Origin: an uncultured Spirochaetia bacterium
GTDB taxonomy: Bacteria; Spirochaetota; Spirochaetia; CAKZLE01
Reading direction: 5' to 3'
Assembly: GCA_937125225.1 (NCBI GenBank)
Contig: CAKZLE010000004.1
Location: forward strand, 1 to 64,000
Length of the DNA: 64,000 nt
The notes below the pieces were generated by a model that worked only from the letters and a program-made list of their open reading frames with translations, made no database searches and was not told the DNA's origin. Shown here one piece after another: positions 3,487 to 32,815 of the stretch. Made by a program: the position numbers and the translations under genes. Each line of letters starts with the position of its first letter. The stretch's first letter is position 1.

Positions 3487-3740
3487 ACAGAACCTGAGAA
3501 ACTGGATACACCTTTGGTAAATGGTATACGGCAATAGATGGAGGAGGGAGAGTGTTTACCAGTAGTAGTGTCGTTACCGGAGATATAAACGTATTTGCGC
3601 ATTGGACCATCAGAATGCCAACATGAGGTGAACTCAAAGCAATAATTAGGAATGGCGATGATGTAACTAACGCAGATACATCTGATATTGCTGATAAGAG
3701 CAATTTACTTGTTAGAGGTTCGACATATAACAAAGCATTG
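3487..3740 (+). pseudogene. Remnant of a second BspA-like lipoprotein gene
   Basis: This stretch aligns base for base, with many substitutions, to about 1018-1275 of the intact lipoprotein. It covers the end of the second InlB repeat (TGYTFGKWYTAIDGGG), the AHWTI end motif, and the DGDDVTNADTSDI segment before the DUF285 repeats. The frame is broken by a one-base deletion near 3497 and a TGA where the intact gene has an Arg codon (near 3625). No signal peptide and no DUF285 units remain. At its 3' end the homology switches directly into an IS3-type orfA remnant, so insertion of an element may have killed the gene. Confidence 0.8.
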
Positions 3741-6458: not shown

Positions 6459-6754
6459 GATAAATGCAATGGGGAGAAGAGTGACCTACCATGAATAGCG
6501 GTTTTTCATTGATCTTCTATTATGAGATTGAGTCTTCATAAACTATAGTATAACACAATATTGAATAGCTTCGGATAAACCTTTACTGCAGATACCAATA
6601 TCAGATCGTCTATAAACTTAAGAAAGAGAATGGTGACAAAGTCTATGAGGTGAGAAACCAGTGCTTACCATGTCAAAGATCTAGCCCTTCTCTAAAAAGA
6701 GGTGTCTAGATCTTGATCTGTCAGAGTCTTACCCCTCCATACAGATCATATCAA

Positions 6755-6787
6755 CGAGAACTCCTATAGAAGGAATTCTCGTCTTTT
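6755..6787. terminator. Hairpin after the FG-GAP lipoprotein gene, copy 1
   Basis: Arms CGAGAACTCC and GGAATTCTCG around a 7-base loop. Folding is slightly better on the minus strand, where the mismatch becomes a T-G wobble. On the plus strand the stem is followed by TCTTTT. It can serve the lipoprotein gene ending at 6798 (minus). The same structure recurs at 9902-9928 after the second copy. Confidence 0.55.
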
Positions 6788-6797
6788 AAAGTGGTCT

Positions 6798-8705
6798 CTA
6801 CTCTAATGAGATATCAAAGACATAGGCACTTCCTGAGTTGCCACCGTTATCATCATCAGTGTTTGCACCAATCAAAGCGATATCACCATCAATACTGACT
6901 GAAATACCGAAGTTGTCATTGTTGCTTCCATCAGCAGCAGTCAGCTTATTCTCTTGTATCCATGTGGTATCTGATCGAGTAAAGACATAGGCACTTCCTT
7001 TATCATCATTGGTAAAGGCACCAATCACGACCGTATCCCCATCAATACTAACAGAAAGTCCAAAAAGATCCCTTGCAGATCCATCGTTAGCTATCAACTT
7101 TGCTTCTTGTGTCCATGTGGTACCCGAATAGGTGAAGACATAAGCGCTTCCAGCGTGATAGCTCTTATCATCATCATAAGCTGCACCAATTACTGCGGTA
7201 TCTCCATCAATACTAACAGAAATCCCAAAATAATCCCCTGCAGATCCATCGGTAGCTGTCAATTTTACCTCTTGTGTCCACGTGGTACCTGAACGGGTGA
7301 ATACATAGGCACTTCCTGAGTTAGAGCCTTTATCATCATTGTTATAGGCACCAATCACGACAGTGTCTCCGTAAATACTGACAGTACTTCCAAAACTGTC
7401 ATTCGCTGCTCCATCTGAAGCTGTCAGTTTCGCCTCTTGTGTCCACGTGGTACCTGAACGGGTGAATACATAGACACTACCTGAGTTAGAGCCTTTATCA
7501 TCATCTGTATAGGCACCAATCACGACAGTTTCTCCGTAAATACTGACATTCCTTCCAAAATTATCATTCGCTGCTCCATCTGAAGCTGTCAGTTTTGCCT
7601 CCTGTGTCCATGTGGTACCCGATCGGGTGAATACATAGGCACTTCCTTTAGCATCATCATCTTTATAGGCACCAATCACGACAGTTTCTCCGTAAATACT
7701 TACATTCCTTCCAAAATTATCATTCGCTGCTCCATCTGAAGCTGTCAGTTTTGCTTCTTGTGTCCAAGTAGTACCTGAGAGGGTAAAGATATAGGCACTA
7801 CCTGAGTTAGAGCCTTTATCATCATCATACGCTGCACCGATCACTGCGGTATCCCTATCTATGCTGACAGCCACACCAAAGAGATCAAATTCGGCTCCAT
7901 CCGTAGCGAGTAATTTTGTTAATTCTACCCAGTTCGCATAGAGTACCAATGGAGTATTGAGCGAGTAGGAAGCCCCTGCTTCATAGGTAGTACCTGATCC
8001 ATTAGCAGCAGTATTCCATCCTGCGAAGAAATACCCATTCTTTACAAGATTGCCGGTGTTAGTTGCTAAGGTCAGATCCTGATCATAGACTTTACTCTGG
8101 TCATCCGGAACACTACCACTCGTAGCAGTATTCGCATCATAGGAGATGGAGTAGGTGATAGAATCCCACTTGGCATAGAGGGTGATCTCTCCTTCAGAGG
8201 AATAGCTCGCCCCTGCAACATAGGTAGTACCTGATCCATTAGCCGCAGTATTCCAACCCCCAAAGGTATAGCCATCCTTTGTGAGATTTCCCGTGTTGGT
8301 TGCTAAAGTCAGATCCTGATCATAGATTTTACTCTGGTCTTCAGGAGCAGTACCACTGGACGCAGTATTCGCATCATAGGTGATGGTAGAGATCTCTGGA
8401 TCCCACCCTGCATAGAGGGTCATCTCTTCCTCGATAAGGTCTTCATCAAAATCCCAGCTTATCAAACAGTCTTCATCACCGTACCAACCGGTGAAGCTGT
8501 AGCCTGTTCTTGTAGGGGCTTCTTCGGGTTCGATGATATAGCCGATGGCCTCTTGGGGGGGAATGGGACTCCCTCCTTTGCTATCGAAGGTGATCATAGC
8601 CCCTTCCATCAATATCAGGTACTCACCACAACCACTATACAGGAGGGAGATCAGCATCGCTATAACGAGTAGTCTTGTCCATCGTCTCTGTTCTTTCATC
8701 ATCAT
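6798..8705 (-). CDS. Seven-blade FG-GAP lipoprotein with InlB repeats, copy A
   Basis: Exported lipoprotein of 635 aa. The signal peptide ends in the lipobox YSGC (Cys26). Three Listeria/Bacteroides repeats follow at about residues 35-105, 106-182 and 183-260, each ending in YAGW, YAKW or YANW. From about residue 262 there are seven repeats of 50-55 residues of the form [28 protein letters not shown], then [17 protein letters not shown]. These are integrin-type FG-GAP blades, and seven would close one propeller. Blades 2 and 3 are almost identical. The start shows three consecutive ATG codons behind AAGGAG, and the third gives the best spacing. The gene begins 5 bp after the stop of the 272-aa gene, so the two are almost certainly co-transcribed. 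Role: probably surface binding; the ligand is unknown. Confidence 0.9.
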
Positions 8706-8710
8706 TCTCC

Positions 8711-9529
8711 TTAGAGTGTCACGCTCGTACCGACAGTCACTGCTGTCTCGAAAGCCATCTGATCTGATCCGGTATAGAAGATCTCCTCTCCCCTGAGGAA
8801 GAGTTCCTGATGTTCACTGATCATTCCTGAAAGATCGACCCCAACTTTCCCATACCCGTCATAGCAGGGGATCAAGGTGCCGGTACAGTGGATAGGTGCC
8901 TCAAAGAGGAGTCCGGCTCCGATCTGTGGTGCAATAGTGAGTATTCCGAAGTCTACCGGATAGGCTGCCCCAATCCCTGCAGAACCGGTATGTACGGTAG
9001 TGATGAGATCACTAGGGGATGAACCCTTCCAGTAACTTGCCTCCCCATAGATCTCCATGTTCTCATAGGGTTTGATGAATCTGAGCGATCCCCCGTATCC
9101 CTGTTCATACAGGGCTTGAGGTGTATTACCGAGAGGCTTCACATAGAGTCCTCCGAGAGCGATCCTCATAGGTTCAGTAGGAGTGATACCGGTTGCTTCA
9201 AGGGGTGAAAAGGGGTGTTCCCAGGTGTCGGAGATCGGGTCATAGGAGAGTTCAAAACTACTACTCCAGCTTTTTCCATCGAGGGTATACTGGTAATAGA
9301 CGATATCTTGGAGTATATCGGAGGACACCCACTCAACAGAGGGGTCTTTCTGATCTAAGAGGGTCCACCCATCAGTGACAGCATGATTGACTTGATACCG
9401 ACAGGCTCTGATATCATCGCGAAGGATGAATCGCAGAGAGACGGTCTCTACACAATCGCCAGCGAACAGTGTAGCGGGGATGATCAATAGGAAGATAAGG
9501 ATTAGGATGACGTGTGATGTGAGTCTCAT
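8711..9529 (-). CDS. Exported beta-rich protein, possible outer-membrane partner, copy A
   Basis: Protein of 272 aa with a cleavable signal peptide (hydrophobic core, then a likely cut after LFA near residue 23). The mature part is rich in short alternating strands with aromatic residues and ends in VTVGTSVTL, suggesting a beta-barrel or beta-sandwich envelope protein. I do not recognise a family. It is first in a two-gene unit with the FG-GAP lipoprotein and has a GGAG ribosome site 6 nt before its ATG. The predicted protein is identical to the one encoded at 11885-12703. The leader upstream (9530-9789) is also identical between copies, so both units should respond to the same control signals. 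Confidence 0.8.
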
Positions 9530-9789
9530 AGAGTTCTCCTCAGTAAAATCAAATAGATTGATGATGTCTTATATGTTGGTATAACCACTTTTTTACATGA
9601 TGAGTACGGAAAAAATGATACTATATAGTGAGAAACCTGTGTTGTAAGCTTTGGGGTAATCTTGTAGGACAATGGGAAGTTGAAGGGGTGAACAGCTCAG
9701 ACTCGGTTAGTGATCGGGTTCCTGATAGTTGGAGTTGTTCTCATACACACAGGTTCATATGATTGGGTGATGGGATGAATCTTGGAAGA

Positions 9790-9877
9790 TCACCGATGAT
9801 GCTTTGGGGATATATACCTATGAAAGATAACCATTGGACCAATTTATCATCGTGTAGTTAATGTACTCTTTAGTATC
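9790..9877. other. Unique spacer between the two duplicated units
   Basis: Identity with the region upstream of copy B stops at 9789 (12963 in copy B). A short mismatched tail of similarity runs to about 9812. The rest matches nothing else in the window. No gene or promoter is evident. This marks the junction of the duplication. Confidence 0.6.
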
Positions 9878-9901
9878 ACCCCTCCATACAGATCATATCA
9901 A

Positions 9902-9934
9902 CGAGAACTCCTATAGAAAGAATTCTCGTCTTTT
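9902..9934. terminator. Hairpin after the FG-GAP lipoprotein gene, copy B
   Basis: Second copy of the hairpin at 6755, with arms beginning CGAGAACTC and ending GAATTCTCG followed by TCTTTT on the plus strand. One base change shortens the inner stem relative to copy A. It sits just past the stop codon of the lipoprotein gene ending at 9945. Confidence 0.5.
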
Positions 9935-9944
9935 AAAGTGGCCT

Positions 9945-11879
9945 CTACTCTAATGAGATATCAAAGAAATAGACACTTCCTGTTTTAACGCTATTAATTC
10001 TATCACGGGTTGAACTGACCAAGGCTTGATCACCATCAAGGCAACCAGAGATCCCAAAATAACTAATATTAGCGCCATCTCTAGGCGTCAATCTCTTTTG
10101 TTGGGTCCAATAACCATCTGAAAGGGTAAAGACATAGGCACTCCCAGTGCCATTTCCGTAGTCATTATCGTCTGAATATGCACCAATCAAAGTGGTATCT
10201 CCATCAATATCTACAAAAACTCCGAATTTATCTCCTGTGGCTCCATCAGCAGCCACAAGCTTAGCTTCTTGCACCCATGATGTACCTGTCCTGGTGAAAA
10301 TATAGGCACTTCCTGTATCAGTCCCATTATCAGTATCATCAGAAAATGCTCCAATTATGGTCGTATCTCCTTCGACTCTGACATGCCGTCCGAAATTATC
10401 ACCTGCCGCTCCATCTGAAGCTGTCAGTTTTGCCTCTTGTGTCCATGTCGTTCCTGAACGGGTGAAGACATAGGTGCTTCCTGAGTCCGTACCATTATCA
10501 TCATCATACATTGCACTAACCATAATAGTATTCTCATCGATACTGACGATATACCCAAATTGATCCCCTGCCGCCCCATCTGAAGCTGTCAGTTTTGCCT
10601 CTTGTGTCCACGTGGTACCTGATCTGGTAAAGACATAGGCACTTCCTGAATTTGACCCATCATCATCATTATAATTTGCACCAACGACGACCGTATCCCC
10701 TTCAATACTTACAGATTTCCCAAAATTATCATATGCAGCTCCATCAGTAGGTGTTAACTTTGCCTCCTGTGTCCATGTAGTACCCGATCGGGTGAATACA
10801 TAGACACTACCTGAATCAAAACTATTATCATCATCATACGATGCACTGATCACGACCGTATCCCCATCAATACTCGTATTAACTCCAAAATAATCATATG
10901 CTGCTCCATCTGAAGCTGTCAGTTTTGCCTCTTGTGTCCAAGTAGTACCTGAAAGGGTAAAGATATAGGCACTACCTGAGTTAGAGCCTTTATCATCATC
11001 ATACGTTGCACCGATCACTGCGGTATCACCAACTTTACTGATAGAATCCCCGAAATAATCATCCCTATCCCCATCTAGGGCAAGTATCTTTAGAGAGTCT
11101 ACCCAGTTCGCATAGAGTACCAATGGAGTATTGAGCGAGTAGGAAGCCCCTGCTTCATAGGTAGTCCCTGATCCATTAGCAGAAGTATTCCATCCTGCGA
11201 AGAAATACCCATTCTTTACAAGATTGCCGGTGTTAGTTGCTAAGGTCAGATCCTGATCATAGACTTTACTCTGGTCATCCGGAACACTACCACTCGTAGC
11301 AGTATTCGCATCATAGGAGATGGAGTAGGTGATAGAATCCCACTTGGCATAGAGGGTGATCTCTCCTTCAGAGGAATAGCTCGCCCCTGCAACATAGGTA
11401 GTACCTGATCCATTAGCCGCAGTATTCCAACCCCCAAAGGTATAGCCATCCTTTGTGAGATTTCCCGTGTTGGTTGCTAAAGTCAGATCCTGATCATAGA
11501 TTTTACTCTGGTCTTCAGGAGCAGTACCACTGGACGCAGTATTCGCATCATAGGTGATGGTAGAGATCTCTGGATCCCACCCTGCATAGAGGGTCATCTC
11601 TTCCTCGATAAGGTCTTCATCAAAATCCCAGCTTATCAAACAGTCTTCATCACCGTACCAACCGGTGAAGCTGTAGCCTGTTCTTGTAGGGGCTTCTTCG
11701 GGTTCGATGATATAGCCGATGGCCTCTTGGGGGGGAATGGGACTCCCTCCTTTGCTATCGAAGGTGATCATAGCCCCTTCCATCAATATCAGGTACTCAC
11801 CACAACCACTATACAGGAGGGAGATCAGCATCGCTATAACGAGTAGTCTTGTCCATCGTCTCTGTTCTTTCATCATCAT
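9945..11879 (-). CDS. Seven-blade FG-GAP lipoprotein with InlB repeats, copy B
   Basis: Paralogue of the 6798-8705 product, 644 aa. Signal peptide, lipobox Cys26 and all three InlB repeats are the same to about residue 260, apart from one Ala-to-Ser change in the third repeat. The seven FG-GAP blades that follow differ extensively. Blade 1 starts [17 protein letters not shown] instead of [16 protein letters not shown]. Blades 5 and 6 carry longer acidic loops, and blade 7 has lost most of its DDD calcium-type loop. The last residues (FDISLE) are again shared. So scaffold and anchor are conserved while the exposed propeller varies. Co-transcribed with the gene at 11885, 5 bp upstream. Confidence 0.9.
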
Positions 11880-11884
11880 TCTCC

Positions 11885-12703
11885 TTAGAGTGTCACGCTC
11901 GTACCGACAGTCACTGCTGTCTCGAAAGCCATCTGATCTGATCCGGTATAGAAGATCTCCTCTCCCCTGAGGAAGAGTTCCTGATGTTCACTGATCATTC
12001 CTGAAAGATCGACCCCAACTTTCCCATACCCGTCATAGCAGGGGATCAAGGTGCCGGTACAGTGGATAGGTGCCTCAAAGAGGAGTCCGGCTCCGATCTG
12101 TGGTGCAATAGTGAGTATTCCGAAGTCTACCGGATAGGCTGCCCCAATCCCTGCAGAACCGGTATGTACGGTAGTGATGAGATCACTAGGGGATGAACCC
12201 TTCCAGTAACTTGCCTCCCCATAGATCTCCATGTTCTCATAGGGTTTGATGAATCTGAGCGATCCCCCGTATCCCTGTTCATACAGGGCTTGAGGTGTAT
12301 TACCGAGAGGCTTCACATAGAGTCCTCCGAGAGCGATCCTCATAGGTTCAGTAGGAGTGATACCGGTTGCTTCAAGGGGTGAAAAGGGGTGTTCCCAGGT
12401 GTCGGAGATCGGGTCATAGGAGAGTTCAAAACTACTACTCCAGCTTTTTCCATCGAGGGTATACTGGTAATAGACGATATCTTGGAGTATATCGGAGGAC
12501 ACCCACTCAACAGAGGGGTCTTTCTGATCTAAGAGGGTCCACCCATCAGTGACAGCATGATTGACTTGATACCGACAGGCTCTGATATCATCGCGAAGGA
12601 TGAATCGCAGAGAGACGGTCTCTACACAATCGCCAGCGAACAGTGTAGCGGGGATGATCAATAGGAAGATAAGGATTAGGATGACGTGTGATGTGAGTCT
12701 CAT
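11885..12703 (-). CDS. Exported beta-rich protein, possible outer-membrane partner, copy B
   Basis: Identical in predicted sequence to the 272-aa protein at 8711-9529, with the same signal peptide, ribosome site and 5-bp spacing to its FG-GAP partner. Complete conservation next to a strongly diverged partner suggests either recent duplication with ongoing exchange in this half, or selection to keep this component invariant. Its family is not recognised. Confidence 0.8.
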
Positions 12704-12987
12704 AGAGTTCTCCTCAGTAAAATCAAATAGATTGATGATGTCTTATATGTTGGTATAACCACTTTTTTACATGATGAGTACGGAAAAAATGATACTATAT
12801 AGTGAGAAACCTGTGTTGTAAGCTTTGGGGTAATCTTGTAGGACAATGGGAAGTTGAAGGGGTGAACAGCTCAGACTCGGTTAGTGATCGGGTTCCTGAT
12901 AGTTGGAGTTGTTCTCATACACACAGGTTCATATGATTGGGTGATGGGATGAATCTTGGAAGCTCACTGATGAGGCTTTGGGGTATC

Positions 12988-13533
12988 CTATATACGGAGT
13001 AATCCTCGGAAACCACGAGCGTCATAGTAGGAATCGGCCCCGTTATGATACATGAAGACTTGATCATAGCGTCTGTCGCAAAAAAGTGCACCACCAAGGT
13101 CTCGGATGCTCGCGGGGGTCTTGATCCAACTCGATGATCTCAGGTCGAAATCACCTAGATCTTGTAGATGCCGATACTGAGACTCGGTAAGTAACTCGAT
13201 ACCCATGGTTGTGACCATATCGATCACAGAACCTTTTGGTTTATTCTTTTTCCTGTTTATCAAAGCCTCTTGGTCATAACAGAGACTTCTCCGTCCTTTA
13301 GGGCTCTCAGGTGAACAGTCGCAGAAGAGATATTCTAGAGTAAGATCATCAAACCCAATGATATCTGGCTCTCCCCCAGTAGTTTTCATTTCTGATAGAA
13401 TCATGTATTTTCCCGGATTCTTTTCGAGTCGATGCTTCACATCTTTCCATTCGATATTCTTATGACGTTCCATATGATTCAGGAATCTCATCTCAAGGAT
13501 CTCTGTGATTGGTATAGCAGTCTTTAGATTCAT
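12988..13533 (-). CDS. DUF4256 family protein
   Basis: About 181 aa from the preferred ATG at 13533. An in-frame ATG at 13569 exists but lacks a ribosome site, whereas GGGAGGAG lies just before the inner ATG. Conserved stretches typical of DUF4256 are clear: GGEPDIIG, CSPESPKGRRSLCYD, NKPKGSVIDM, SSWIKTPASIRDLGGALFCD and YHNGADSYYDARGFRG. The family is of unknown function, soluble and usually a single-copy cytoplasmic protein. Its 3' end abuts the duplicated region upstream of copy B, so the gene was not part of the duplicated unit. Confidence 0.88.
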   Translation of the reverse strand: MNLKTAIPITEILEMRFLNHMERHKNIEWKDVKHRLEKNPGKYMILSEMKTTGGEPDIIGFDDLTLEYLFCDCSPESPKGRRSLCYDQEALINRKKNKPKGSVIDMVTTMGIELLTESQYRHLQDLGDFDLRSSSWIKTPASIRDLGGALFCDRRYDQVFMYHNGADSYYDARGFRGLLRI

Positions 13534-13706
13534 CACTCCTCCCATAGATTCGGTAAGATCAAAAACCATTGGATGGTTGAGATAGTCATGATTGTATCAT
13601 GAAAACCTGGAGCAATGGGAATCGGTGATCCTAATTTGCTTATTTGAGTAGATTGTTATGAGATGAACGATTATCTATCTGTTGCTAGGGTCTCTCTGTA
13701 TTCTTC

Positions 13707-14060
13707 CTAGACACTCCTTGTGGTCACTACCCCAACACCGGTATCTTGAAAATCTGATATGATCACTTCCCCCATCTTGATCGGGGAGGCTAATCTCAGG
13801 GTGTACAGATGATTGAGTAGTGATGCGATCTGGGCTTTTGGTAAAGCCTCAGTGGTCTTGACCGGTATCCTTGAAAGTCCTTTAGCTCCGGTAACCGCTA
13901 CCGTGGCAGTCACTACCCGTCTTGGAGCTGAGATCTCCTCACGGGCATAGATGACCCCACGCTTACATTTATTTCCCGTGATCTCAAGATCTTCCACATC
14001 TCCTGCTATATGAAGATGACAACCCAAAGGGCAACTGATACAAATTATATCTCTATTCAT
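13707..14060 (-). CDS. DUF1667 iron-sulfur-type protein of a glycerol-3-phosphate dehydrogenase operon
   Basis: Protein of 117 aa with an N-terminal cysteine cluster (Cys7, Cys10, Cys14 and a further Cys in GNKCKRG) that fits a metal or Fe-S site. The C-terminal part has the DUF1667 pattern RVVTATVAV...PVKT..ALPK. In many anaerobes DUF1667 is encoded with a GlpA-like dehydrogenase and an FAD/NAD oxidoreductase, as here. It is last in the operon and overlaps the upstream gene by 8 bp. AAAGGAG lies 7 nt before the ATG. Probable role: a small electron-transfer or accessory subunit (inference from context). Confidence 0.88.
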   Translation of the reverse strand: MNRDIICISCPLGCHLHIAGDVEDLEITGNKCKRGVIYAREEISAPRRVVTATVAVTGAKGLSRIPVKTTEALPKAQIASLLNHLYTLRLASPIKMGEVIISDFQDTGVGVVTTRSV

Positions 14061-15312
14061 GATTCGTCTCCTTTAAATGGACCTCTAGATGATCTCCCTC
14101 ATCAATATCTTTAAGGATCTCATCAGGAACATCGATACCGATCATTTCCGATGGTTGAATATGTCGAAGTCTCTTTGAGAAGATCACTCGATTTCCAGCG
14201 GTAAGCTGGATCTCACTACGATTCGAGACGATCAGACTGCGCATATAAAGATGATTCTTTCCCTGAAGGCTCATCCTTCTTGGAACCACGTATTTTAAGT
14301 TAGCCCCTGCTTGAATATCAACCTGCTTTCCTACAGATTCTTTCCCGATGTAGGCATCCACAGAGGCCGCACATCGAAGGCTTTCTTCAGTGACATAGTC
14401 AACAAGGTCATGCACATGCAGTACATTCCCACAGGCAAAGATACCTGGGACAGAGCTCTCATGCCGAGAATCCACTAGTGGACCTCCTGTCTCCGGGGTC
14501 AACAAAACACCTCCCGTCTTGGCTATCTCTGTATCTGGGACTAGTCCCACCGATAGAAGAACGGTATCACAATCGATAACGAACGGTTCTGTGCCATCCC
14601 TTGGGGTAATCTCCACTGCTTCCACCCGATCCTTACCTCGAATCTCACTGACAACATGGTTCAGGTAGAGGGGGATACCGAAATCATTCAGACACTGTAC
14701 GATGTTACGGGTGAGCCCGGCTGGATAGGGTTGGATCTCTACTACTGCCTTCACCTTGGCTCCGACCCAACTCATCCGGCGGGCCATGATGAGTCCGATA
14801 TCACCGCTTCCGACTATAACAACCTCTTTACCGGGAATATATCCCTCAATATTGACCAATCGCTGGGCTAGTCCAGCGGTATAGACTCCACTTGGTCTTG
14901 TACCAGGAGTCCCGATATTCCCACGGTTCCGCTCCCTGCAGCCCATGGCTAGGACAACTGCTCTTACCTCAAAACAGACCATCCCGTGTTCAGCACTGAA
15001 GCCGTAGACCTTATGACGGTCTTCTACATCTTTTCCTGGGGTGATCTCGGTGATAGTCATCCCTAGATGGACGGGAATCTGCTGTTCGTTCACCAGCTCA
15101 GAAAAACGCTCGGCATATTCCGGGCCAGTGAGTTCTTCTTTGAAGTGGTGCAGGCCAAAGCCGTTATGGATACATTGATTGAGGATTCCTCCTAACACAT
15201 GATCCCTTTCCACTAGGACTACATCTCGGCCAAGTTCTTTGAGCTCTGTTGCTGCAGCCATTCCCGCAGCTCCTCCACCGATGACGAGGACATCTCTATT
15301 CTCTATCTTCAT
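14053..15312 (-). CDS. FAD/NAD(P)-dependent oxidoreductase of the glycerol-3-phosphate operon
   Basis: Protein of 419 aa with two Rossmann folds. The FAD site GGGAAGMAAA is near residue 12 and the NAD(P) site VGSGDIGLIMARR is near residue 170. A CIHNGFG segment lies near residue 50, and GIFACGN marks the second FAD contact. This is the family regularly paired with DUF1667 and a glycerol-3-phosphate dehydrogenase, and it probably passes electrons from the dehydrogenase to a pyridine nucleotide or other acceptor. Translation is coupled on both sides: its ATG overlaps the stop of the upstream gene and its end overlaps the DUF1667 start by 8 bp. GAGGAG precedes the ATG. Confidence 0.9.
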   Translation of the reverse strand: MKIENRDVLVIGGGAAGMAAATELKELGRDVVLVERDHVLGGILNQCIHNGFGLHHFKEELTGPEYAERFSELVNEQQIPVHLGMTITEITPGKDVEDRHKVYGFSAEHGMVCFEVRAVVLAMGCRERNRGNIGTPGTRPSGVYTAGLAQRLVNIEGYIPGKEVVIVGSGDIGLIMARRMSWVGAKVKAVVEIQPYPAGLTRNIVQCLNDFGIPLYLNHVVSEIRGKDRVEAVEITPRDGTEPFVIDCDTVLLSVGLVPDTEIAKTGGVLLTPETGGPLVDSRHESSVPGIFACGNVLHVHDLVDYVTEESLRCAASVDAYIGKESVGKQVDIQAGANLKYVVPRRMSLQGKNHLYMRSLIVSNRSEIQLTAGNRVIFSKRLRHIQPSEMIGIDVPDEILKDIDEGDHLEVHLKETNHE

Positions 15313-16766
15313 ACCATCTCCTCTACTGACAGATCGCCGACCTTGGCATTCACAATATAACTTCCACTTCCTCGTTTCGTGAGATCCTCAATAGTCTGAC
15401 CAGTCTCCCGTTGGAGTATCTGCAGGATACGGAAGGTGCAAAAGCCTCCCTGACAGCGTCCCATTCGTGCTCGGGTATAGAATTTGATCCCATCTAACGT
15501 CTTATGTCCCCGCCTGATCGCTGCTACGATCTCAGCCTCTGAGACTGACTCACAGCGACAGACGACTTCTCCATAGGCTGGGTTTTCGGCGATGAGCTTG
15601 TCTAACTCTTCTTTTTCCGTCCCACGGAATCGGGGAACCGCTTCAATCTCGGGGTCGTATTCAGGATTCTCTTCCAAGATTAGACCAGCTTTTCTCAGGA
15701 GGTCCTTGACGTATTCCCCAATAGCCGGGGCTGCGGTAAGACCGGGGCTCTGAATACCCGCTACCTGAACGAACCTGGGTGCTTCCTTGCTCACGTCTAT
15801 ATAGAAATCATTTCCTTTCAGGACTGGTCTCAGACCAGCAAAACTGGTGATGATATCTCTCTCCGACACAGTAGGGACCAGGCGTCGAGCGGAATAGAAG
15901 ACCTGTTCGAAATTTCCTTGGGTAGTGGCTTTATCCTCTTTGTCATCTCCAATGATCGCTGTAGGACCTACCATAGTAGTCCCTTCAACCGTGGGTATCA
16001 CTAACATTCCCTTACTGACTTTGCTAGGGACCGGGAAGATGATTCTTTGTGTGAAGGCTGATGCGTTTCGGTCAAGGAGGAACTCTTCACCTTTTCGAGG
16101 TGTTATCTTGAAATCTTCAGCCCCAAAGATGCTGCTGATCTTATCAGCATAAAGCCCAGCGGCATTGATCACCCATTTAGCTTGGATCGTCTGTCCTGAT
16201 TCTCCTGTTATGAGGTAGCAACCATCTTTTTCTTCAGCTTGTGAAACGTTGAAATCAGTTTTGAGTTGTACACCGTTCTTTAAAGCCGACTCCATGAGGC
16301 TATAGACGAATTGATAGGGTTCGATCATACCCCCACCAGGGGCATGAAGTCCTCCGACCACATCGGGATTCAGCTTTGGTTCCAAGGATAGGATCCGGCT
16401 GCGGGAGCAGAGTTCTATACCGATGGCCCCATTATCTAAACCGTTTTGGTAGAGTTCCTCCACAGTTCGCATCTCTTCTGTGCTGAAGGCAGCCACTAGG
16501 ATACCATTCCGTCGAAAGGGAAAGTGCAGCTCCTTCTGAAGCTGATCGAACATGAGGTTTCCTTTCATCTCAAGGTGACTCTTTAAGGCACCTTTCCCGT
16601 GATGAAACCCTCCATGTATAATCCCTGAATTCGCTTTGGATACCCCAAAGCTCACATCGGTCTCTTTTTCGAGAAGAACCGTCTTAAGCTTATAGGCACT
16701 CATTCTACGGGCTATTGCCGCACCACTTACCCCACCACCAATAATAGCTATATCGAAACAATCCAT
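15309..16766 (-). CDS. glpA: Glycerol-3-phosphate dehydrogenase-type FAD oxidoreductase with BFD-like domain
   Basis: Protein of 485 aa. The N-terminus has the FAD motif IGGGVSGAAIARRM, followed by a DAO fold with SGIIHGGFHHG and INAAGLYAD. At about residues 395-455 is a BFD-like [2Fe-2S] domain with CRC...GRCQGGFC cysteines. The architecture matches the anaerobic glycerol-3-phosphate dehydrogenase large-subunit family, oxidising glycerol-3-phosphate to dihydroxyacetone phosphate; related members act on 2-hydroxyglutarate or other hydroxyacids. It is first in a three-gene operon, with AAGGGG 6 nt before the ATG. No glpB or glpC is present; the two downstream genes replace them. The glpA symbol is a family-level call, and substrate is not proven by sequence. 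Confidence 0.85.
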   Translation of the reverse strand: MDCFDIAIIGGGVSGAAIARRMSAYKLKTVLLEKETDVSFGVSKANSGIIHGGFHHGKGALKSHLEMKGNLMFDQLQKELHFPFRRNGILVAAFSTEEMRTVEELYQNGLDNGAIGIELCSRSRILSLEPKLNPDVVGGLHAPGGGMIEPYQFVYSLMESALKNGVQLKTDFNVSQAEEKDGCYLITGESGQTIQAKWVINAAGLYADKISSIFGAEDFKITPRKGEEFLLDRNASAFTQRIIFPVPSKVSKGMLVIPTVEGTTMVGPTAIIGDDKEDKATTQGNFEQVFYSARRLVPTVSERDIITSFAGLRPVLKGNDFYIDVSKEAPRFVQVAGIQSPGLTAAPAIGEYVKDLLRKAGLILEENPEYDPEIEAVPRFRGTEKEELDKLIAENPAYGEVVCRCESVSEAEIVAAIRRGHKTLDGIKFYTRARMGRCQGGFCTFRILQILQRETGQTIEDLTKRGSGSYIVNAKVGDLSVEEMV

Positions 16767-21022: not shown

Positions 21023-24000
21023 ATGTACAAAAGGAGATCTGTTTCTGCCATCGTCGTCTTTATAATCATATTTATGAGTATCTTCACGATCGGTTGTCCG
21101 GTCGTCCCTGTGGAACCTGATACCGGAGATCTTACGATCACTTTACCGACAAGTCTATCTGGCAGCAGAGATATCGACCCTGATATCTCCCTGATACCAG
21201 CCACATTCACTATCACGGGGGCAGGCCCGGAAGGAGCTTCATTCTCTGTGAGTGATTTTAGTGGAACCATGTTCTCCAGACCTGGTCTTACCATAGGTTC
21301 TTGGGCGATCACTGTCTCAGCCTACAATGCGGATGGGACTCTTATCGGTGATGGATCAGGGACCGTGGATCTCACCATCGATGGTGCTAATTTGCCCATT
21401 TCTATCAATATACTTCCCGGAGATGGGACGATCGATATCGTTGTCTCATTTGACACCTATTTGATGGAGGACCCCAGGATCACCGCGACACTCTCTCCGA
21501 CATCCCGTGCGATCAATTCCTTTAGCGTGACTTCTGATGTGGTGAATGGAAGGGCTATCTGCCGTGCTGCTGGGTATGCAGCAGGGGATTATACCCTGAC
21601 TGTGAACCTCTATGAAGGATTATCCCTTATGGAGACGAAACAGGAGAGTGTCCGGGTGATCAAGGACCTTCCCACCGTTGGAGCTGTGAGCTTCGGTACC
21701 ACCACCCACGCTTTTGGCTCTCTCTCAAGACCGATCATCCTTAATCATGAGATACCTCTTGCCGTTGAGATCAGTTCTGCTGCAGATACGAAGACCGAAG
21801 ATGAGACATTGGTCCTCACTGCATCAGTCACGAGTTTCGATGCCCCCATCGATTACGTCTGGTATGTGGACAGAACTATTGCAGGAGTAGGTCCCTCATA
21901 TACTCTCGGTAGTAATCTGGCTATCGGAACCTATACGGTCAAAGTCGCAGCAGTCAATGCTGATGGGACGAGAGCTGGTAGTGATATCAAGATTATCACC
22001 GTCACATCAGGAGAACAGACAGAGCCAGTCTATTCGATCCCTCTGACATTCGTGGAAGGTGGGACCTTCACGATGGGGGGAACTGATAACGGTCCGACTC
22101 ACGATGTCACCTTGGGTGATTTCTATATCGGGACCTATGAGATAACTCATGGTGATTTCTACCATGGGGCAGAAGTGTATACCTCCGGTAGTTACCAGAG
22201 GGGCTCCTCATATCCGGCTGACAATATCTCTTGGTATAGGGCGCTCGCTTTCTGTAATGAATTGAGTATCACAGATGGACTTACCCCGGTCTATACGATC
22301 AAGGGGAGTACCGATCCTGATGACTGGGATTCCACCTCAATACCCTCATCGTATGATGATGATTGGGATGCGGTAATAGTAGATTGGACGGCACATGGAT
22401 ACCGTCTACCGACCGAGGCTGAGTGGGAATATGCTGCACGGGGAGGCAACAATGCATCTGATACCCTCTATGCAGGGAGTAACACCATCGCTGATGTCTC
22501 TTGGTATCAGAATACGAGTTATGATGCTACCTGGAGCAAGAAAGTGACCCATCCTGTGGGTGAGAAGGCTGAGAACGAACTTCATATCTTCGATATGAGC
22601 GGGAATGTGGAAGAGTGGTGTTGGGATTGGTATAATGTTTATTCCACAGATGAACAGACTGACCCACACGATGCTACCCCACAGGACATGAAACACCGGG
22701 TACAGCGTGGTGGTGCCTATAACTACATAGATGATGCAAACAGAGTCTTTCATCGTAGAAGTTATGCTCCCTATAGTAGAACTGATTCTATGGGAATGAG
22801 GGTGGTCTTGAACCCCGGGGTCACCATGGTTCCGGTAACTGGGGTAGATATCATCGAAGATGATCAGGTGATGAATCTGTCAGGATCTCTGCAGTTACAT
22901 ACTGGTATTATCCCCTCCAATGCTACGATGCAGGAAGTGCTTTGGGAGAGTGACGACCCTAGTATCATCTCTGTAGATGAGAATGGGCTTGTGACTGCGA
23001 ATCAGGTTGGTGATACCGTGATCAGGGTGAAGACTGTTGACAGTAGACACGAAGACTCGATCAATCTAGAGGTTAAGAACAGTTTGTTCGATTCAGCTAC
23101 AATGGCTCGGGTTGAAGGTGGGACCTTCATGATGGGAGCTTACAAGCATCTTACGGGAAAAGAGACAACGGTAAGCAGTTTTTACATCAGTACTCATGAG
23201 GTGACTCAGAATGAGTATCTGTCTGTCATGGGTGAGAATCCCTCATACTTCCAAGAAGGTGATACCGGAAGTTGTCCGGTAGAGCAGGTGAACTGGTATG
23301 AGGCAGTCATCTATTGTAACAAACTCAGTGTCCAAGATGATCTGACCCCGGTATATTCCATCACTGATGATCTGGGGGTCTTAATTACTGATACAGATCA
23401 GTGGATAGCTGATTATGAGGGTATTCCCGGTCGTGGTGATGATCCCTCCTATAATATTGCTTGGCATGAGATCGAAGTCGACTGGCTTGCAGACGGCTAT
23501 CGTCTACCGACCGAAGCTGAGTGGGAGTTTGCAGCCCATGGAGGCACTTCTACTGAAGGGTATCGATTCTCAGGAAGTGATACCATCGATGATGTTGCCT
23601 GGTATGGTGGTAACAGCAATAACAAGACACATGCTGTAGGTGAGTTGGCTCATAATGAGCTCGGACTCTATGATATGAGCGGTAATGTGAGTGAATGGTG
23701 CTGGAGTAAGCTCGTCAGTTATGGAACTGGTCCACTCTTTAACCCCACCGGATCAGGTGATCCTGCTGAAGGCTCTAGCCAAGTAGAGCGAATGCATAAA
23801 GGGTACTACTATAATCTAGTTCCAGAAGCAAACAGTGATTACCTAGAGATTGGAGGAAGGGAGTACCGAGAACCTTCTCAAGATTCTCTCACGACAGGTT
23901 TTAGGATCGCTGCCCATGATAAGGGAGATGAGGTAAGGGTGACTGGTATCGAGATCGAGGAGGGCATTCGTGCTGAACTGGAGATCGTGAACGAGGTCGC

Positions 24001-24937
24001 TGATACCATCACTCTGCATGCCTCGGTGAAACCTGAGACTGCATCGAATAGGGTGTTCTCCTGGTCATCGACCAATGAATCAGTAGCCACCGTCGATGAG
24101 GATGGTCTGGTTACTGCAGTCTCAGATGGACTTACTGTCATTATCGCGACTACTGAAGAAGGTGGTTATACTGATCGCTTCGTCGTCTTCGTAAAAGAGC
24201 ATTTCATTCCGATGGTATCGGTCCCCGGATGTACCCTCGCTATCAATGGTGTAGCAACTGCGGCTGATTTCAAGATTGGCATGTTCGAGGTCACACAAGC
24301 TCAATATGAAGAGGTCATGGGTAGTAATCCTTCTGGCTTCCTTGAAGGAGAGGACGCACCGAATAGACCGGTTGAGATGGTCTCCTGGTTCGATGCTATC
24401 CTCTTCTGTAATACCTTGAGTATCGAAGAGGGGTTGACCCCTTACTATATGGTCGATGGGAGTGTTTATCCTGATCAATGGGATCCTGTCCCAGAAAGTC
24501 TAGAGGATGAACGTACTAGTTGGATCTCCATAACTGGTAATCATACTTCGAGTGGTTATCGTCTTCCGACTGAAGCTGAGTGGTTGATCGCTGCAAATGG
24601 TGGAGCTGATAGAGAGGGGTATCTCTTCTCAGGTGGTAATCAGATCGATGATGTCGCTTGGTACGGATATAACAGTGGAAGGACCACCCATCCTGTTGGG
24701 GAAAAGCAACCGAATGAGCTCGGTCTCTTTGATATGACGGGAAACGTCTCAGAGTTAGTCTGGGATAGCACACCCGGACAATATATATACACTGATTTTG
24801 AATGGTGTAAATTCTTCGGTGGTAGTTATATGACATCTAGATGGGACTTCCTACAACCGAAACTAGGAATCCCTCATTGGCGGAATTATCGTAATGTGAC
24901 CATTGGTTTCCGTGTCGCTAGATATGACTACGACTAA
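21023..24937 (+). CDS. Giant lipoprotein with three FGE-sulfatase-like (SUMF1) domains
   Basis: Exported lipoprotein of 1304 aa with a lipobox ending in Cys25 (TIGC). An N-terminal region of beta-sandwich-like segments (30-330) is followed by three FGE-sulfatase/C-type-lectin-fold modules at about 335-600, 695-965 and 1065-1300. Each has the markers GYRLPTEAEW, NELxxxDMSGNV(x)EW or similar, and a GFR/GMR end. They are separated by two Big_2-type Ig domains (605-690 and 970-1060, e.g. WSSTNESVATVDEDGLVTA). True formylglycine-generating enzymes need a Cys pair near the C-terminus. I see none at the matching places (RVQRGGAYN..., FFGGSYMT...), so these modules are probably binding folds. The gene has its own strong terminator. 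Confidence 0.9.
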   Translation: MYKRRSVSAIVVFIIIFMSIFTIGCPVVPVEPDTGDLTITLPTSLSGSRDIDPDISLIPATFTITGAGPEGASFSVSDFSGTMFSRPGLTIGSWAITVSAYNADGTLIGDGSGTVDLTIDGANLPISINILPGDGTIDIVVSFDTYLMEDPRITATLSPTSRAINSFSVTSDVVNGRAICRAAGYAAGDYTLTVNLYEGLSLMETKQESVRVIKDLPTVGAVSFGTTTHAFGSLSRPIILNHEIPLAVEISSAADTKTEDETLVLTASVTSFDAPIDYVWYVDRTIAGVGPSYTLGSNLAIGTYTVKVAAVNADGTRAGSDIKIITVTSGEQTEPVYSIPLTFVEGGTFTMGGTDNGPTHDVTLGDFYIGTYEITHGDFYHGAEVYTSGSYQRGSSYPADNISWYRALAFCNELSITDGLTPVYTIKGSTDPDDWDSTSIPSSYDDDWDAVIVDWTAHGYRLPTEAEWEYAARGGNNASDTLYAGSNTIADVSWYQNTSYDATWSKKVTHPVGEKAENELHIFDMSGNVEEWCWDWYNVYSTDEQTDPHDATPQDMKHRVQRGGAYNYIDDANRVFHRRSYAPYSRTDSMGMRVVLNPGVTMVPVTGVDIIEDDQVMNLSGSLQLHTGIIPSNATMQEVLWESDDPSIISVDENGLVTANQVGDTVIRVKTVDSRHEDSINLEVKNSLFDSATMARVEGGTFMMGAYKHLTGKETTVSSFYISTHEVTQNEYLSVMGENPSYFQEGDTGSCPVEQVNWYEAVIYCNKLSVQDDLTPVYSITDDLGVLITDTDQWIADYEGIPGRGDDPSYNIAWHEIEVDWLADGYRLPTEAEWEFAAHGGTSTEGYRFSGSDTIDDVAWYGGNSNNKTHAVGELAHNELGLYDMSGNVSEWCWSKLVSYGTGPLFNPTGSGDPAEGSSQVERMHKGYYYNLVPEANSDYLEIGGREYREPSQDSLTTGFRIAAHDKGDEVRVTGIEIEEGIRAELEIVNEVADTITLHASVKPETASNRVFSWSSTNESVATVDEDGLVTAVSDGLTVIIATTEEGGYTDRFVVFVKEHFIPMVSVPGCTLAINGVATAADFKIGMFEVTQAQYEEVMGSNPSGFLEGEDAPNRPVEMVSWFDAILFCNTLSIEEGLTPYYMVDGSVYPDQWDPVPESLEDERTSWISITGNHTSSGYRLPTEAEWLIAANGGADREGYLFSGGNQIDDVAWYGYNSGRTTHPVGEKQPNELGLFDMTGNVSELVWDSTPGQYIYTDFEWCKFFGGSYMTSRWDFLQPKLGIPHWRNYRNVTIGFRVARYDYD

Positions 24938-30167: not shown

Positions 30168-32462
30168 CTACTGCCGTTCTCCAGTCCTCTGTCCGTTTCC
30201 CCGGTACATGGGCCATGGTGCATTGGAATCTATCCCTGAAAGAGATTCTGTCTCGAAAGCAAACACTGCGGTTGTTGTAGCCCCTTGGCTGTTGTGACTA
30301 TACGTATAATGCTTTATTACCACGAGGATCCCATCAGAAGTGATGACAGGAGGAAGCAGGGTTATCGAAGAAGAATCTGCTACATCATCTAGATCATATG
30401 ACCATTCGATCGATCCTGTGTCCCTGTCAAGAGCATAGAGTTTACTCCCGCTCGTAGCATAGAGCCGATTATCTGAGCCAAGAAGCATATAGGCGTTACT
30501 TGATTCCAGAGATGTATTCCACTGTACATCGCAGTCTGAACTGTCTATTGCCCTGATTTTTCCGCTTCCTGGGAGGTAAAGAATCCCATTCCCATCGATC
30601 ACAGGAACACTCTTCTCATCGATCGATATGTCAAATCCATCGTTCCCGCCTGAGTATCCATAACCACTAGTAGACCAATCTGCTGTTGTAGGGCCTGTAC
30701 TGACGTAATTCCCGGATTCATCGATCTTCAGTAGACGGTGGTCTTCAGTTGATACATAGATATTCCCATTACTATCGATGACCGGCTCTACGGTAGAAAG
30801 ATCGGTATTCGATGTGGCTGTATAGGAATAAACCCACTTACGTGTTCCATCAGAGGTATTTACCGCATAGAGGGTGTTCTCTACGGTGAAGTAGAGAGTC
30901 AGACCATCTTCTGATATCGAGATATCTGATCCTTCAGCTGTTCCGAAGGAGTCGTTCGTCCAGGTGACGACTGAGACTTTCTCAGCGTTCCATTGTCTTG
31001 GTACATGATTCTCGATCGCATACAGAGTCCCATTCTGAGCTCTGAAATAGATATCCCCATCACCGACGGTGGCTGTAGAGGTGTCTTCGGTATATGAAAG
31101 ACTCGACAGGACATCCAGACCTGAGATTCCACCAGGAGAGACCTCGTAGGAGTATCCAGATATCACAGAAGAGTTATTGGTGAGCTCATATGATCCCATA
31201 TGGGTATCATCATCGATCGTGATGATAGCATGCTTATCTGTGTAGGAGTATTCCGGAGTGACCATGGGTGGGATATGGCGTGCAACATCCAAAGAGGCTC
31301 CTAAGTAGTTAAAATCGATGTTCCTATTATAGAGCGTAAAGAACAAGAGCGAACTGATCGGGTTGTTATTCTGATAATAGGAGATTATTGAGAATATATT
31401 ATTCTCAGGATCGATGCTTGGTGCAGAATATACATCATAGAAGTCCGCATAGGTATGTTTCCAGATGAGATGGTCATACTCCCTGAATACAGGTGAAAAG
31501 GGTATATCTTTATCGATGGTGACCTCAATCTCTGGCTCCGTACTATAGTTACCATAGGGGCAACCCCAAGAGTCCAGGGTATAGCCCTCATCTGGGACGG
31601 CGGTCAAGGTTATGTTCGTACCAGGTTCAAAGGAACCGGAGGTGAAGATACTGCCATCCTTCAGAATCTCACCATGAGTCGCCGTATTGACAGTGATCGT
31701 ATAGGTCTCTGGTGTGAAGATTGCTCCAATAGAGGAGTCTTCTGTGATGGTGAAGGTATAGGGGGTTGTTGTCATATTGGAACTTCCAGTCCATCTTGAG
31801 AAGTCATATCCCTCATCAGGTACCGGAGTAAGAGTCAATGAAGTACCATAGGGGTAGTCATGAGTTCCTGCCGTGAGGAGTTGGTCTCCTTCTTTGATAG
31901 CGCCATTCGTAGGAGCTAAGACTGTCAGTTGATAGATCAGATTGGAGAATGTCGCACCTATACTCATATCTTCGGTGACGGTTACCACCTTTGGGTTCTC
32001 TGAACCACTTATATCGTCTGTCCAGCTACTGAGCGAGTATCCGGTATCTCCGACTGCATGCAGGGATATCTCTGTCCCATAGGCGATTGATAGGGTCCCC
32101 GAGGCATCGATACCGTCTATCTGGATCTGACCATTGGTCGGATCAGATATGGTAATGGTATACATGTTGGGCTCGAATACGGCGGTGACCTCTGTATTCC
32201 CATCGAGGATGACCTCGAGGGGATTCTCACTCCCCGTGGCTCCAGAGGCCCAGTGGTCGAAATGGAATCCTGTCTCTGCTGTGGCCTGTAGGGCTACCTG
32301 TTCCCCAAATTCATACACATTCTTTGAGGGGGTGCAGGTTATTGTCCCCTGAGTATCATCGAAGATCAGGGTCAAAGAGGCAGTCTGCTGCGGACAGCCT
32401 GTGAGGATGATGAGAATGAGTACTACTCCTACAATAAGCACTGATGAAAGTCTTCTCTTCAT
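30168..32462 (-). CDS. Lipoprotein with four InlB-type repeats and a PQQ-like beta-propeller
   Basis: About 764 aa from an ATG at 32462; a TTG six codons upstream is in frame, but AAAGGA fits the ATG. The lipobox is LTGC. Four divergent InlB/Bacterial_repeat domains follow over roughly residues 30-330, each with GTxxTLTAVPDEGYxFxxW and a final IGAxF. The C-terminal 430 residues form a PQQ/quinoprotein-type propeller: repeated GxxYxxxxDGxLYAI, VYVSTEDHRLLKID, YALDRDTGSIEWSY, then the diagnostic end PWPMYRGNGQRTG. No PQQ-binding enzyme residues are assignable. It probably acts as a surface-exposed binding or assembly protein. Neighbours are also exported proteins on the same strand, but spacing suggests separate transcripts. 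Confidence 0.88.
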   Translation of the reverse strand: MKRRLSSVLIVGVVLILIILTGCPQQTASLTLIFDDTQGTITCTPSKNVYEFGEQVALQATAETGFHFDHWASGATGSENPLEVILDGNTEVTAVFEPNMYTITISDPTNGQIQIDGIDASGTLSIAYGTEISLHAVGDTGYSLSSWTDDISGSENPKVVTVTEDMSIGATFSNLIYQLTVLAPTNGAIKEGDQLLTAGTHDYPYGTSLTLTPVPDEGYDFSRWTGSSNMTTTPYTFTITEDSSIGAIFTPETYTITVNTATHGEILKDGSIFTSGSFEPGTNITLTAVPDEGYTLDSWGCPYGNYSTEPEIEVTIDKDIPFSPVFREYDHLIWKHTYADFYDVYSAPSIDPENNIFSIISYYQNNNPISSLLFFTLYNRNIDFNYLGASLDVARHIPPMVTPEYSYTDKHAIITIDDDTHMGSYELTNNSSVISGYSYEVSPGGISGLDVLSSLSYTEDTSTATVGDGDIYFRAQNGTLYAIENHVPRQWNAEKVSVVTWTNDSFGTAEGSDISISEDGLTLYFTVENTLYAVNTSDGTRKWVYSYTATSNTDLSTVEPVIDSNGNIYVSTEDHRLLKIDESGNYVSTGPTTADWSTSGYGYSGGNDGFDISIDEKSVPVIDGNGILYLPGSGKIRAIDSSDCDVQWNTSLESSNAYMLLGSDNRLYATSGSKLYALDRDTGSIEWSYDLDDVADSSSITLLPPVITSDGILVVIKHYTYSHNSQGATTTAVFAFETESLSGIDSNAPWPMYRGNGQRTGERQ

Positions 32463-32815
32463 ATTCTCATCCTTTTTCAATAGGCATGATTCTCACTAGT
32501 TGAGAAACACATGCATTATACGTGATCACCTCATACACAACATATGAGACCCTGTTCTTGGGAAATATACTCAATATCAGTCATGAATAACGGTTACATT
32601 ATACTATGGAAATCTGGATTTTTGTACTACCTGTTAATAGGATATGCTTATAACTTAGATTGTAGTGGTTGCTCGCTATCTGAGGTTACTGAGACTCTTA
32701 AAGATCCGATCATGAGGAAGTCGTCACTTCCAAGATAAGGGTGGGCATGAACTGTCACAGATCGTAGTTAAAAGGTAGTCTTGAAAGGATGAGCAATGAT
32801 CTACCCTGATGAAAA

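Follow-up and report, generated by a model that had tools for sequence, protein, structure and literature searches.

How can two neighbouring copies of a surface-protein unit be almost indistinguishable over one half and far apart over the other? The question is raised by a locus at ~6731-12962, in which two units lie side by side in tandem on the minus strand. The window, i.e. the whole stretch analysed, comprises 64,000 bp (positions 1-64000 of contig C4) of a draft genome of 3.43 Mb in 36 contigs that is 97% complete with 4.5% contamination. Each unit consists of a 259-bp leader, a gene for a 272-aa protein and a lipoprotein gene that starts 5 bp on. The features of the locus are:

6731..6836, minus: converging tail, last 13 codons and the 67 bp that follow, including an inverted repeat; 101/106 identical to 9878-9983
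6798..8705, minus: unit 1 lipoprotein, 635 aa; signal/lipobox, 3 InlB repeats, 7 FG-GAP_2 blades; 7-blade propeller predicted
7275..7754 (approximate bounds), minus: unit 1 blades 2-4, mutually 88-93% identical, within-array homogenisation (blade alignment, tree)
7738..7855, minus: island from the second half of blade 1 to the start of blade 2; 114/118 identical to 10912-11029 (base comparison and permutation)
7924..8009, minus: blade-side edge of the constant block; 2/86 bp differ (base-level comparison)
8010..9788, minus: unit 1 core, 1779 bp, 0 differences from 11184-12962 (base-level comparison)
8711..9529, minus: unit 1 272-aa protein, identical to the unit 2 copy
9530..9788, minus: non-coding leader of unit 1, same sequence as 12704-12962
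9789..9809, minus: upstream edge; 3/21 bp differ, similarity lost from 9810 (base-level comparison)
9810..9877, no strand: inter-unit spacer, without similarity to the other flanks
9945..11879, minus: unit 2 lipoprotein, 644 aa; signal/lipobox (..YSGC), 3 InlB repeats, 7 FG-GAP_2 blades
11184..12962, minus: unit 2 core, identical to 8010-9788 (base-level comparison)
11885..12703, minus: unit 2 putative outer-membrane beta-barrel protein, 272 aa (from homologs; no Pfam/NCBIfam match)
12704..12962, minus: unit 2 leader

Both lipoproteins have a signal with the lipobox YSGC, a stalk of three Listeria-Bacteroides (InlB/Flg_new) repeats and seven copies of FG-GAP_2 that score above the Pfam threshold. 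The structure model of the unit 1 lipoprotein contains a confident propeller (block means mostly >70 from residue 262) with four strands per blade in most blades and integrin alpha propellers as the best PDB matches; the stalk was modelled without resolved structure. Leaders and open frames are intact in both units. A promoter-like CTTACA-17-TATAGT is present in both leaders, in a sequence in which promoter matches are no better than in shuffles, and an Rfam search of the window returned no elements. Both units are predicted to be expressed.

Repeat-built exported proteins are abundant in the window. The gene at 621-2117 on the plus strand encodes a surface protein with InlB and DUF285 repeats, and a 226-bp segment at 3501-3726, 75% similar to it, may be the remnant of a second copy. 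Further candidates for surface proteins lie at 30168-32480 and 21023-24937, with a fusion of divergent InlB repeats to a PQQ-type propeller and a combination of FGE-sulfatase domains and Big_2 repeats.

Three levels of divergence between the two units

An earlier note on this DNA, made by eye, had described two nearly identical blocks with two differences between them. In a base-level comparison of 7924-9788 with 11098-12962, 2 of 1865 bases differ, at 7992 (A/C) and 8009 (C/A), as described; the final base that had been included in the blocks (9789/12963) itself differs. Base comparison, the identical 272-aa proteins and a domain search bore out that the block takes in the 259-bp leader, the entire 272-aa gene and the lipoprotein signal with the three InlB/Flg_new repeats. 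Over ~365 synonymous sites in the constant coding half and the 272-aa gene, there is one difference, and a genome-wide search for the constant block gave no other match >72%. The edge SNPs flank the core and lie within sequence that is homologous on both sides, and they look like the ends of conversion tracts rather than those of an inserted copy.

A second level of divergence is found in four segments, with bounds picked by eye, i.e. the blade-side edge (7924-8009, 2/86), the upstream edge (9789-9809, 3/21), the island (7738-7855, 4/118) and the tail (6731-6836, 5/106), which together differ at 14/331 positions (4.2%). The contrast with the core (0/1779) is significant (Fisher 4e-12) and would remain so even with 18 core differences concealed by the assembly (1e-4).

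The third level is the remaining propeller. Over the whole propeller, 129/261 synonymous differences were counted (pS 0.49), and position-matched dS for blades 1 to 7 is 0.47, 0.35, 1.03, 0.98, 0.96, 1.20 and 1.50; outside the second-level segments the propeller is near synonymous saturation, with dS about 1 in blades 3-7. The blades indeed diverge immediately past 7924/11098, with about 60% identity by eye in the first half of blade 1. The island of identity, previously placed at 7758-7850 versus 10932-11025, extends over 7738-7855 versus 10912-11029 and is the sole stretch of the propeller with a pS near zero; the best 38-codon window of the propeller contains 35 identical codons (p = 0.00025, from 20,000 permutations in which synonymous states were shuffled within amino-acid classes). 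The tail converges again, as had also been noticed (6731-6836 versus 9878-9983).

These three distinct levels (0/1779, 14/331 and dS about 1) exclude a single recent duplication followed by uniform neutral drift, in agreement with the argument of the earlier note, and imply that exchange or homogenisation of the constant half postdates the separation of the propellers. As in concerted evolution, one segment of the paralogs is far more alike than its homologous flanks, and its boundaries are sharp.

Probable blade turnover and the two-gene module in Spirochaetia

Over the propeller, pN/pS is 0.42. Among the columns scored, pN exceeds mean pS in five, by a factor of 1.25 at most, and most of these lie near the FG motif or in the loop that follows the IGA strand. 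Positive selection on the blades is weak at most, and the blades seem to have diverged long ago while under purifying selection.

The genome encodes four other FG-GAP lipoproteins (C24:158k, C20:501k, C20:384k and C15:10.7k), and the blade count is seven in all six arrays. In a blade tree, most blades of the two units cluster with each other and apart from those of the four other arrays, with the exception of the capping blades 7; support for the deep nodes is weak, and blade 1 is the only one with strong position-wise pairing (support 0.995). The longest exact tracts measure 52 bp between units 1 and 2 and 50-55 bp inside some arrays, such long internal repeats being present in two of the four other arrays. 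By contrast, no tract >24 bp is shared between the units' blades and the four other arrays. The recent homogenisation of unit 1 blades 2-4 lowers rather than raises the variety of blades. In total, these sequence comparisons suggest that blades turn over within arrays, that tracts may occasionally pass between the neighbouring units and that outside donors are probably absent from this genome.

No Pfam or NCBIfam model matches the 272-aa family, and the single-sequence structure model (pLDDT 34) gives no usable fold. The family is conserved, and its members terminate in F or L, preceded by alternating residues. A search of 395 genomes of the class found homologs in 71, with many short and weak matches among them. 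In every locus read, a lipoprotein gene follows about 10 bp downstream of the homolog. The gene after a paralog in the same genome (C24:181411, 51%) encodes a lipoprotein with InlB and BspA-type leucine-rich repeats, a genome of the same family (G001) has one unit with an InlB and FG-GAP lipoprotein, and YDG-repeat lipoproteins occur in the units of further genomes, of which at least some are Sphaerochaeta-like. An unannotated bicistron of a putative barrel gene and a lipoprotein gene with interchangeable FG-GAP, BspA-type LRR or YDG domains recurs across Spirochaetia (L023:2885-7009; L069:10132-12966; L071:3253-8889 and 11249-16159; L072:3509-8923 and 11235-15326), and the 272-aa protein is predicted to be a barrel that acts together with the lipoprotein. 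A literature search on FG-GAP/InlB lipoproteins in Sphaerochaeta found nothing relevant.

In two single-contig genomes (G276 and G236), a pair of such units is likewise arranged in tandem, each accompanied by regulator and kinase genes of its own, and there is no homogenised half; therefore, tandem units recur and the homogenised half is seen only here. In Sphaerochaeta-like single-contig genomes, response-regulator-like and GHKL-type kinase genes precede each unit (L071 1122-3142 and 9083-11103; L072 1317-3337 and 9114-11134), and the four-gene block of regulator, kinase, barrel and lipoprotein genes is itself tandem.

Origin of the pattern

We favour, with a probability of roughly 0.6, an old tandem duplication after which the constant halves were overwritten by recombination between the neighbours as the propellers drifted apart. 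The starting event would have been the duplication of a two-gene surface module, with the putative barrel gene followed by the gene for a lipoprotein with an InlB stalk and an FG-GAP tip. The two propellers would then have diverged under purifying selection with blades turning over within each array, and RecA-type homologous recombination between the adjacent copies would repeatedly have rewritten leader, barrel gene and stalk; the propellers would have escaped overwriting once their divergence hindered pairing. This reading, for which the evidence base is one draft genome, is supported by the contrast between the core (0%), the edges, island and tail (4.2%) and the propeller (pS 0.49), by the single barrel, InlB and FG-GAP unit of the sister genome, by the tandem units without homogenisation in other Spirochaetia, by the grouping of the two units' blades apart from the four other arrays, as well as by the likeness of unit 1 blades 2-4 (88-93%) together with the 50-55 bp repeats in two other arrays.

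A divergent propeller allele imported into a younger duplicate would look similar. Recombination would then have targeted the exposed tip, replacing most of one propeller by another strain's allele of the same locus after a recent duplication of the unit, and the shared edges, island and tail would be remnants of the original copy. All of these are ~4% diverged, a plausible age for the duplication; the mosaic inside the propeller and the tapering seen at either end of it are compatible with tract ends, and an intragenomic donor is unnecessary. However, even with some assembly collapse allowed for, the age difference between the 0% core and the older 4% segments is significant, so that an extra homogenisation event is needed, and no donor allele turned up in the genomes searched. 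Both this alternative and old duplication with overwriting need more than one exchange. We consider allele import possible but unlikely, and the sequence points to gene conversion as the source of the pattern. In a broader proposal, which we regard as doubtful, free-living Spirochaetia would use the barrel and lipoprotein as a display module whose anchor and stalk are held uniform by recombination and whose propeller tips pass between strains, giving a population repertoire of binding tips without host immunity as the driver.

The earlier note had proposed ongoing gene conversion of the constant half together with diversification or shuffling of the exposed half, as in antigenic or ligand variation. 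The first part is supported, in that the constant half was exchanged or homogenised after the propellers split; the second, as active diversification, is not. A surface lipoprotein with a constant/variable layout and blade exchange inside arrays would fit programmed variation by cassette conversion or a mutagenic reverse transcriptase. However, a search for donor FG-GAP cassettes elsewhere in the genome found none; silent cassettes sharing tracts with the pair, such as those of vls-type systems, are likewise absent from the assembly, and tracts shared with other arrays are <=24 bp. The intact leaders and frames of both units, the low pN/pS and the five marginal columns described above also argue against such a programme. 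A diversity-generating retroelement was rejected as a candidate: the lone RVT_1 match in the genome lies on another contig and looks, by eye, like a group II intron reverse transcriptase, there is no template match, and the blade substitutions between the units are of all base types and not restricted to one. Similarly, the tail hairpin is found in the genome only at these two tails and was rejected as a dispersed recombination site. Antigenic variation, moreover, presupposes a host immune system; G001 contains the record JAIPFY010000111 of the Spirochaetia MAG Tobar13m-G40, and this nearest named relative looks environmental judging by its name. Altogether, programmed variation is very unlikely.

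Finally, the near-identity of the constant half might be partly artificial, the assembler having fused two copies that differ more, or sequences of two strains. A contig end cuts off the 16S rRNA gene (C6:2-732; only model positions 9-741 are covered), which is typical of short-read assemblies and indicates that this one has repeats left unresolved; therefore, the exact identity of the core and the copy number are insecure. With short-read data, the identical core would be a single graph node passed twice, and small internal differences or more than two loop copies could go unseen. De Bruijn assembly collapse can hide only widely spaced differences of about 1% or less, far below the divergence of the blades, and the contrast between core and blades is unaffected. 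Although the 36-contig draft, its contamination and the broken 16S gene fit this explanation, and the surviving SNPs lie only close to unique edges, as collapse would give, the loop topology (flank-R-propeller2-spacer-R-propeller1-flank) requires a real junction of tail 2 with the unit 1 leader, and an assembly effect is very unlikely to be the explanation.

Relation to known systems

The closest documented pattern is the segment-specific concerted evolution of babA/babB and homA/homB in H. pylori, for which PMC3960876 and PMC2795765, citing Pride and Blaser 2002, describe one segment homogenised within a strain by gene conversion and another that is divergent. Both cases involve paired surface-protein genes with this division. 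The H. pylori pairs differ in that a 3' adhesin segment is homogenised, the loci are separate, many strains are covered and expression switching occurs; here, the leader, partner gene and stalk of a tandem pair are homogenised, as known from the sequence of one genome. Borrelia vlsE is likewise a spirochaete surface lipoprotein with a constant/variable layout; according to PMC2632889 and PMC9159922 it involves silent cassettes and one expression site, whereas here both units are complete and a cassette array was not found in the assembly. The WD-repeat hnwd genes of Podospora have an unstable repeat number and strong positive selection at four positions (PMC2873952); they resemble the present case in encoding beta-propeller recognition domains with repeat units evolving in concert, and differ from it in that here all six arrays of the genome have seven blades and strong positive selection on the blades is absent. 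Repetitive FG-GAP/alpha-integrin beta-propellers that arise through blade amplification have also been described (PMC9218822), and the present case shares with these the seven blades, the near-identical neighbours and, as the closest PDB matches to the predicted fold, the integrin alpha propellers; it differs in that the propeller belongs to a bacterial lipoprotein with an InlB-repeat stalk and a putative barrel gene as partner.

The two tips, for which surface exposure and binding are predicted, may bind different ligands. The finding extends segment-specific concerted evolution, known from H. pylori adhesins, to a probably environmental spirochaete, and a barrel/lipoprotein module with interchangeable tips is a possible surface-display pair.
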